Positions 6,261 through 59,300 of a DNA stretch of 64,000 nucleotides are shown piece by piece. The stretch's first letter is position 1, and each line of letters opens with the position of its first letter. The stretch comes from Planctomycetes bacterium MalM25. GTDB taxonomy: Bacteria; Planctomycetota; Planctomycetia; Pirellulales; Lacipirellulaceae. The stretch spans positions 3,211,968 through 3,275,967 of the forward strand of contig CP036424.1 in the NCBI GenBank assembly GCA_007745835.1. Direction: 5' to 3'. The translations under genes and the position numbers were made by a program. The notes under the pieces are model-generated. The model ran no database searches, had not been told where the DNA came from, and saw nothing but the letters and a program-made list of their open reading frames with translations.

Positions 6261-6265
6261 GTTTA

Positions 6266-6301
6266 ATCCCCCTCCCTGCTAGGGAGGGGCTAGGGGAGGG
6301 T
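6266..6301. repeat. GC-rich palindromic repeat, half copy (GGGGAGGG family)
   Basis: It begins 5 bases after the ispA stop and reads CCCCCTCCCTGCTAGGGAGG followed by GGCTAGGGGAGGG. It matches one arm of the bipartite elements at 11533-11636 and 58437-58535. It can form a hairpin and may act on the 3' end of the ispA message. Confidence 0.75.
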
Positions 6302-8712: not shown

Positions 8713-8732
8713 CCAGGGGCTCGCGCCCCTGG
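8713..8732. repeat. Short hairpin repeat CCAGGGGC/GCCCCTGG
   Basis: A perfect 8-base stem around TCGC, immediately after the small membrane protein gene and before nadK. There is no T-run. It resembles short dispersed hairpins of high-GC planctomycete genomes (inference). Confidence 0.55.
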
Positions 8733-8775
8733 CTACGCGCTGCCGTCCCTGCGGGACTCCGGTTAAGATGGTGGC

Positions 8776-11456: not shown

Positions 11457-11494
11457 CTCCCTCCCCTTGATGGGGAGGGCCGGGGAGGGGTGAG
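11457..11494. repeat. GC-rich palindromic repeat, half copy
   Basis: CTCCCTCCCCTTGATGGGGA plus GGGCCGGGGAGGGG lies 8 bases after the stop at 11449. It belongs to the same family as 6266-6301 and one arm of 11533-11636. Confidence 0.7.
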
Positions 11495-11532: not shown

Positions 11533-11636
11533 TGACCCTCCCCTAGCCCCTCCCTAAGAGGGAGGGGGATCAACTTGAAGCGGGTACCCGGGGCGCCTCC
11601 TCCCCTAACCCCTCCTCCTGAAGGAGGAGGGGGATT
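11533..11636. repeat. Bipartite GC-rich palindromic element, full copy
   Basis: Two hairpins flank a linker that contains GGTACCCGGG. The left part is CCCTCCCCTAGCCCCTCCCT with its pairing AGAGGGAGGGGGAT; the right part is CCCCTAACCCCTCCTCCTGA with GGAGGAGGGGGATT. Read on the reverse strand it lines up along its whole length with 58437-58535 inside bioA, including the shared GGTACCCGGG core. It lies between a secreted-protein gene and a glycine-zipper gene. Confidence 0.8.
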
Positions 11637-57872: not shown

Positions 57873-59300
57873 TTGCCCAACTCGACCGAACCGCTGCGCG
57901 ACTGGGACCGCGATCACTACTGGCACTCGTTCACGCCGATGGCGGACTACAAGCCGCTGGTGATCGAACGGGGCGAGGGGTCGACGCTGTACGACACCGC
58001 GGGCCGTGCTTACCTCGACGGCGCGAGCAGCATGTGGTGCGCCGCGCTCGGGCACAACCACCCACGTCTCAACGCGGCGATCACGGAGCAACTCGGCAAA
58101 CTGGCCCACTGCACGAGCCTCGGCATGGGCGCCGATGTCGCGGTGCGGCTCGCAAAGCGGCTCGCCGACCTGGCGCCGGGCGACTTGCAGCACGTCTTCT
58201 ATTCGAGCGACGGCTCGTCGGCGATCGAGATCGCCATGAAGCTCGCTCTGCAGTATTGGCGGCAGGCCGATGAGCCCAAGCCGGAGAAGACCAAGTACCT
58301 CTCGTTCAACCACGCCTACCACGGCGACACGATCGGCGCGACCGCGGTGGGTGGCATCGGGCGGTACCACGAGGTCTTCGGGCCGATCTTATGCGAAACG
58401 ATCCGCGTCGATCCACCAGACACGCGAGGCGACAAGAATCCCCCTCCCCCCTTGGGGGGAGGGGCTAGGGGAGGGGGCGAGGTAGGTACCCGGGTTCCCC
58501 CCCACCCCGACCCTCCCCCACAAGGGGAGGGGGAATGCGCGCACGCCCTCGCTCGCGTGGAGACCATCCTCAACGAGCAAGCCGACCAGATCGCGGCGAT
58601 CATCCTCGAGCCCCGTGTCCAGTTCGCCGCGGGCATGCTCTTCCACCCGCCCGGCTTCTTGGCGGGGCTGCGGCGACTGTGCGACGAGCACGGCGTGCTG
58701 CTGATCGCCGACGAGGTCGCCGTTGGTCTCGGACGCAACGGCAAGCTCTTCGCGTGCAATCATGAGGACGTGACGCCCGACTTCCTCTGCCTCGGCAAGC
58801 ACCTGACGTCGGGCTACCTGCCGATGGCGGCGACGATCACGCGGCCGCACGTTTACAAGGCGTTCCTCAACCGCTCGCCCGACGAGGACCGCACCTTCTG
58901 GCACGGCCACACGTTCAGCGGCAACGCGCTGGCCGCCGCCGCCGCGATGGCGACGCTCGACGAGTTCGAAGAGCGCACCTTCGAGGAGCTGCCCGCGAAG
59001 ATCGCCCACCTCGGCGAGCGCTGGTGCGACCTCGCCGCGCACCCCGAAGTGAAGCACGCCCGCCAGCTCGGCATGCTCGCGGCGTTCGACTTGGCTGCTT
59101 CTTCTGAGAACGGGGGAGCCGGGGGCTTCCTCGACGAATCCTCCACCGGCCGCCGTCTGGCTCGCTACGCAATGGACCACGGTCTCTGGCTCCGCGCGAA
59201 GCCCGACCTGGTCTACCTCGCCCCGCCTTTGAACGTGTCGATCGACGACCTCGACCGCATGTGCGACGTGATCGCTGAGGGTCTCTCGGCGGGGAAGTAG
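57873..59300 (+). CDS. bioA: Adenosylmethionine-8-amino-7-oxononanoate aminotransferase with in-frame repeat insertion
   Basis: BioA converts KAPA to DAPA in biotin synthesis with SAM as donor and PLP as cofactor. Seen are HYWHSFTPMADYKPLVIERG, SSMWCAALGHNHPRLNAAI, FYSSDGSSAIEIAMKLAL, FNHAYHGDTIGATAVGG, VLLIADEVAVGLGRNGKLF and LGKHLTSGYLP, with the PLP lysine at K309. A TTG at 57873 is the best start because it follows the previous stop and gives the usual N-terminus. Residues 189-221 (NPPPPLGGG... QGEGE) derive from a dispersed repeat inserted in frame, in a surface loop region between 'CETIRV' and 'ALARVETIL'. No other biotin genes are nearby. Confidence 0.92.
   Translation: MPNSTEPLRDWDRDHYWHSFTPMADYKPLVIERGEGSTLYDTAGRAYLDGASSMWCAALGHNHPRLNAAITEQLGKLAHCTSLGMGADVAVRLAKRLADLAPGDLQHVFYSSDGSSAIEIAMKLALQYWRQADEPKPEKTKYLSFNHAYHGDTIGATAVGGIGRYHEVFGPILCETIRVDPPDTRGDKNPPPPLGGGARGGGEVGTRVPPHPDPPPQGEGECAHALARVETILNEQADQIAAIILEPRVQFAAGMLFHPPGFLAGLRRLCDEHGVLLIADEVAVGLGRNGKLFACNHEDVTPDFLCLGKHLTSGYLPMAATITRPHVYKAFLNRSPDEDRTFWHGHTFSGNALAAAAAMATLDEFEERTFEELPAKIAHLGERWCDLAAHPEVKHARQLGMLAAFDLAASSENGGAGGFLDESSTGRRLARYAMDHGLWLRAKPDLVYLAPPLNVSIDDLDRMCDVIAEGLSAGK
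58437..58535 (+). repeat. Bipartite GC-rich palindromic element inserted in frame inside bioA
   Basis: Exactly 99 bases encode 33 residues (NPPPPLGGGARGGGEV, GTRVPPHPDPPPQGEGE). It has two hairpins around GGTACCCGGG and matches 11533-11636 (reverse orientation) and the half copies at 6266-6301 and 11457-11494. The frame stays open, so BioA continues normally afterwards. Confidence 0.85.

Follow-up and report, generated by a model that had tools for sequence, protein, structure and literature searches.

The bioA gene of Planctomycetes bacterium MalM25 was found to contain a repeat that is dispersed through the genome, lies in frame and is absent from the BioA proteins of some relatives. Copies of this repeat were in frame in at least eight genes of the genome (G000), and six of the eight loops concerned carried repeat DNA in congeners also. 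Very probably, the repeat is a tolerated passenger within a length-variable loop of BioA, and such loops have been refilled across species.

A dispersed repeat within bioA

The window, i.e., the whole stretch of 64,000 nucleotides that was analysed (G000:C1:3211968-3275967), belonged to a genome assembled as a single contig of 4.72 Mb. Its relevant features are listed in Table 1. BioA was identified through NCBIfam TIGR00508 (448 bits, against a cut-off of 405); the best-matching stretch of this profile began at residue 222, immediately past the insert, and the conserved core residues of the enzyme were retained. Comparison with the starts of congeneric genes suggested that translation begins at the TTG at 57873. 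Both the 99-base palindromic element that the initial annotation had placed in the gene and its 33 extra codons, free of stops and frameshifts, were confirmed from the sequence and from copies across the genome; counted from this TTG, the codons correspond to residues 189–221. Reading from 58437 to 58535, the insert consisted of AAT, a palindrome with CTAG and GGGAGGGGG, a linker, an inverted second palindrome and AA. Folding of the insert strand was not equalled by any of 200 shuffled sequences (z = -3.5). Tryptic peptides predicted to span the insert include GGGEVGTR and VPPHPDPPPQGEGECAHALAR.

Table 1. Positions of bioA, its insert and related palindromic units within the window
Feature	Position	Strand	Evidence
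bioA, adenosylmethionine--8-amino-7-oxononanoate aminotransferase, intact ORF	57873..59300	+	TIGR00508, PF00202, congener alignment
In-frame insert, palindrome pair, 33 codons, NPPPPLGGGARGGGEVGTRVPPHPDPPPQGEGE	58437..58535	+	Sequence, genome copies, absence from G008 and distant BioA
Left REP-like unit, CCCCCTCCCCCCTTGGGGGGAGGGG + CTAG + GGGAGGGGG	58440..58477	+	Sequence, genomic copy alignment
Linker, GGTACCCGGG core, common to most complete genomic copies	58478..58496	+	Copy alignment
Right REP-like unit, inverted relative to left unit	58497..58533	-	Sequence, folding, copy alignment
Intergenic pair of the insert's family, diverged	11536..11636	-	Copy alignment, random-segment comparison
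Single REP-like unit adjoining the intergenic pair	11459..11490	-	Copy alignment
Single REP-like unit of the insert's family	6265..6300	+	Copy alignment

The genome-wide search for the repeat that had been proposed at the outset, using BLAST, produced 74 hits at approximately 45 places, many of them full length with 79–86% identity. Since the best other copies were 80–86% identical over nearly their full length, with E values down to 6e-24, the insert was interpreted as a repeat and not as a chance resemblance. Complete genomic copies kept the anatomy of a pair plus linker when aligned, and the majority of copies seem to fall outside genes. The exact core, GGGGAGGGGYTAGGGGAGGG, occurred 22 times in G000, 18 in G007, 15 in G009, 4 in G008 and 20 in the related genus G042; beyond the family it occurred three times in total, in G087 and G095, among the sampled genomes of the order. 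Within the window, the complete intergenic copy initially reported at 11533–11636 proved to be real, at approximately 11536–11636, although it is diverged: its global identity to the bioA insert was 67%, with aligned halves at 78–84%, while its score of 33.8 lay far above the maximum among 400 random window segments (11.1). Three intergenic copies of the palindrome pair in G000 (L144, L145 and L147) had approximately 15–20 added bases within the left palindrome, which may be scars of insertion or excision. The sole Rfam family to reach its gathering threshold in the window was Acido-Lenti-1 RNA (RF01687, 46 bits), at 8713–8758 on the forward strand.

The BioA loop in structural models and in relatives

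When BioA was aligned across the family and with distant homologues, the blocks flanking the insert were joined by a short, variable loop; solved BioA structures (PDB) aligned up to the insert and again after it. In the structure model, residues 186–219 formed a coil with the lowest confidence of the model (pLDDT approximately 27–42), and the insert lay between a strand (175–179) and a helix (219–239). On a model that is poor overall (mean pLDDT 59.6), the loop is predicted to be disordered, and a surface position, the feature initially suggested for checking at residues 189–221, seems likely.

The 33 residues are not common to all close relatives, because both distant BioA and the congener G008 lacked them and had a short loop. 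No palindrome was present in the BioA loop of G008 or of G042. The congener G007 possessed its own palindrome pair in this loop, and G009 a single unit, itself a weak hit (E = 0.04) in one search. The claim that the insert separates blocks adjacent in other BioA proteins therefore holds for distant BioA and G008, whereas in G007 and G009 repeat DNA is found there too. A search of genome contigs for BioA returned distant BioA only, with no near relatives. Two more distant family members (L043 of G028 and L045 of G027) had long extra sequence in the same loop that was not C-rich.

The BioA copies of G000 and G007 were 77% identical (0.769), ranking 166th among the 306 cross-genome pairs between G000 and G007, and the left and right junctions between insert and gene were offset between these genomes. 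Straightforward descent from a single insertion is disfavoured because this identity is no higher than that of random pairs and because the junctions are offset, although an ancestral insert may have been replaced. The G007 BioA copy was closest to other copies in G007 (0.88) and to one G000 copy, L007 (0.87), compared with 0.77 for the BioA copy of G000; the right edge, GGAGGGGGAATGCGCG, was common to both BioA inserts. On these comparisons, separate insertion or replacement fits the BioA loop better than one old insertion. In the flanks, G000 and G007 differed by 0.18, 0.13 and 0.38 at the first, second and third codon positions; this pattern indicates purifying selection on the enzyme around the insert.

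Other host genes and reoccupation of their loops

A genomic copy was counted as in frame where the reading frame around it was open and the GC composition of both flanks resembled that of coding sequence. By this definition, G000 had no fewer than eight host genes: BioA, an N6/N4 DNA methylase, UvrA, IleRS, RNase R, MutS, a GlcF-like iron-sulfur protein and an unnamed protein. Hence the repeat could not be described as otherwise intergenic, there being seven further copies in frame inside genes. RNase R carried two single units and the GlcF-like protein one. The unnamed protein had no family hit and contained a DxSGSM motif; beside the insert it was 72–90% identical to its congeners in matched segments. 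Across the host genes, orthologs that lacked the G000 insert aligned on both sides of it. The linker was read as GTR in five of six complete in-frame pairs. No preference for this frame is claimed, because other copies, too, lacked stops most often in this frame (17 of 28).

Orthologs from G007, G008, G009 and G042 were aligned; the DNA between conserved blocks frequently resembled a further inverted repeat and was searched against its own genome. The loops were selected for having a repeat in G000, not in congeners, and the genes scanned more deeply were chosen after the alignments; hence no P value is attached to the result that, with BioA included, six of the eight loops were occupied by dispersed repeats, frequently from an unrelated family, in one or more congeners. 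In G009, inserts with further copies elsewhere were present in the methyltransferase (GAGCCGTAAGCGTCAGC type), MutS (GGGACGA type), the unnamed protein (GGAAGTGGGAAGT type) and UvrA (GAATGACGAA type); in G007, this was true of MutS and IleRS. Loop A of IleRS contained other dispersed families in G007 and G009, the IleRS of G008 had a single C-rich unit, and the methyltransferase of G007 a C-rich pair. The UvrA and GlcF inserts of G007 had no further copies in their own genome, and its unnamed-protein insert produced weak partial matches only; all three were excluded from the count. Scanning the whole MutS ORF of G009 revealed one strongly repetitive segment (L156, 1882–1973), located at the site used in G000, together with a lone weak match close to the C-terminus. 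Repetitive segments of the G009 IleRS ORF fell in three loops, one being the G000 site. From these alignments, repeat DNA appears to settle in these loops time and again, and the bioA insertion can no longer be regarded as a lone exception private to the species, given at least eight host genes in G000 and reoccupied loops in congeners.

Two related observations concern these host families. In the genus, IleRS has two further variable loops (L152:1973-2043 and 2341-2532 in G009, with orthologs in G007, G008 and G042); the dispersed repeats that fill them vary from species to species, and C-rich units occur among them in G007, G008 and G009. An open frame of 2400–2500 residues with two UvrA-like halves was also observed (G007:C6:79691-84013, with equivalents in G008, G009 and G042), and in G009 both halves of this frame bore similar repeat inserts (DNA 84% identical).

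Mobility, known systems and alternative explanations

None of the 51 Y1_Tnp loci of the family that were inspected, which are part of its Y1 genes, was framed by the C-rich palindrome, and a RAYT link for this repeat was rejected on that basis. Of these loci only L082 had a C-rich unit, a single one that lay approximately 370 bp downstream, outside the gene's own, different terminal palindromes. Five Y1_Tnp loci of G000 (L082, L085, L089, L093 and L101) were each flanked by their own, different palindrome type, and several repeat families of G000 are probably transposase-linked. The GAGCCGTAAGCGTCAGC repeat adjoins the Y1-transposase gene at L101; therefore, at least one family that uses the loops is transposase-associated. 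Dispersal suggests that the C-rich repeat itself is, or was, mobile.

Such repeats have precedents. In-frame palindromes occur in conserved genes of Rickettsia (PMC10969869, PMC2229807), and the present repeat resembles these elements in being palindromic, roughly 100–150 bp in length, dispersed and in frame within unrelated conserved genes, here eight. The likeness is one of behaviour only: the lineage differs, presumably the sequence too, and here the unit is a C-rich palindrome pair with a linker, most copies of which are apparently non-genic. The initial comparison, of a mobile repeat within a conserved enzyme, is supported in this respect, but none of the inspected Y1_Tnp loci linked a transposase to the repeat. 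Dimers of GTAG/CGTC REPs encode 20–30 residues within ORFs of several bacteria, uvrA and tRNA synthetase genes among them, and different REPs occupy about the same recB site in two Xanthomonas species (PMC3733652). Inverted dimers inside ORFs, with uvrA and tRNA synthetase genes as hosts, are common to both systems, whereas here recurrence at one site involves several unrelated families and several genes of one genus. Aligned genomic copies had no GTAG or CGTC tag at the end of the stem-loop; the bases towards the stem were mostly CTAG, CCAAC, CCGAC or CCGGC. REPINs and BIMEs (PMC3116915, PMC2817692) likewise comprise two inverted REP-like palindromes with a spacer. Multicopy palindromes of 20–40 bp, frequently paired in inverted orientation, were indeed found, but not on both sides of a REP-associated tyrosine transposase gene among the 51 Y1_Tnp loci. 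Since there was neither a framed locus among those inspected nor a GTAG/CGTC tag, the repeat is called REP-like, rather than a RAYT-mobilised REP.

The preferred explanation is that a non-autonomous dispersed repeat, comprising two inverted C-rich palindromes and a conserved linker, inserted into a BioA loop that varies in length, lies between a core strand and a helix and is probably disordered and at the surface. The repeat would have added 33 Pro/Gly-rich residues and left the enzyme unbroken, and presumably active, because its length is divisible by three and its frame stop-free. Inserts would survive only in loops that tolerate a change of length, selection removing those elsewhere; different species would refill the same loops, either through new insertions or through the exchange of one repeat for another, because tolerant loops are few and the repeat families of the genus many. 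A rather unlikely alternative is that BioA acquired a single pair in the ancestor of the genus and that gene conversion with other copies later homogenised this pair genome by genome, G009 retaining a deletion remnant and G008 having lost the insert or branched earlier. Repeat DNA at the BioA loop in three of four congeners and the right edge GGAGGGGGAATGCGCG in G000 and G007 agree with such an origin, and pairwise identity alone is compatible with gene conversion. Against this, both junctions differ between G000 and G007, the G007 copy resembles the G000 BioA copy less (0.77) than it does L007 (0.87) or other copies in G007 (0.88), and conversion within a family could not have placed unrelated families in the same loop of other genes.

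It is improbable that the insert was recruited, with a Pro/Gly-rich linker or mRNA hairpin being functional and kept by selection. The hairpin is stable, and several hosts act in DNA repair or information processing, a feature also reported for other REPs (PMC3733652); however, the sequence and even the repeat family at the same loop differ among congeners, G008 and distant BioA manage without an insert, and no encoded motif is conserved past what the repeat dictates. An ordinary variable loop of biased composition, with no repeat inserted, might be suggested by the variation in length across the family and by the other long inserts of G027 and G028, yet this very improbable reading is already refuted by full-length genomic copies, 86% identical (E = 6e-24), with the same two-palindrome anatomy. 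Least credible is an assembly artefact: repeats are prone to misassembly, but the genome is a single contig, the frame is kept in eight genes, and independently assembled congeners show repeats in the same loops, two of them with copies of the same family in the BioA loop. The assembly error initially considered is accordingly unlikely.

In-frame palindromes are already known; what is unusual is that unrelated repeats have come to occupy the same loops repeatedly. The literature covered, which was partial, gave no account of unrelated families reusing, within a genus, the loops of several core enzymes in this way. A further proposal, tentative and doubtful, is that a small set of core-enzyme loops in the genus are long-lived landing sites, where resident inverted-repeat DNA attracts other repeats or is exchanged for them, such that unrelated families succeed each other there without loss of enzyme function. 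Palindromes in frame have mostly been treated as a curiosity of Rickettsia; here, one genus provides many replicates, across enzymes, congeners and repeat families at the same loops. For that reason, whether repeats merely persist where loops tolerate them or supply proteins with new linker sequence becomes directly testable, by comparison and by removal of the insert.
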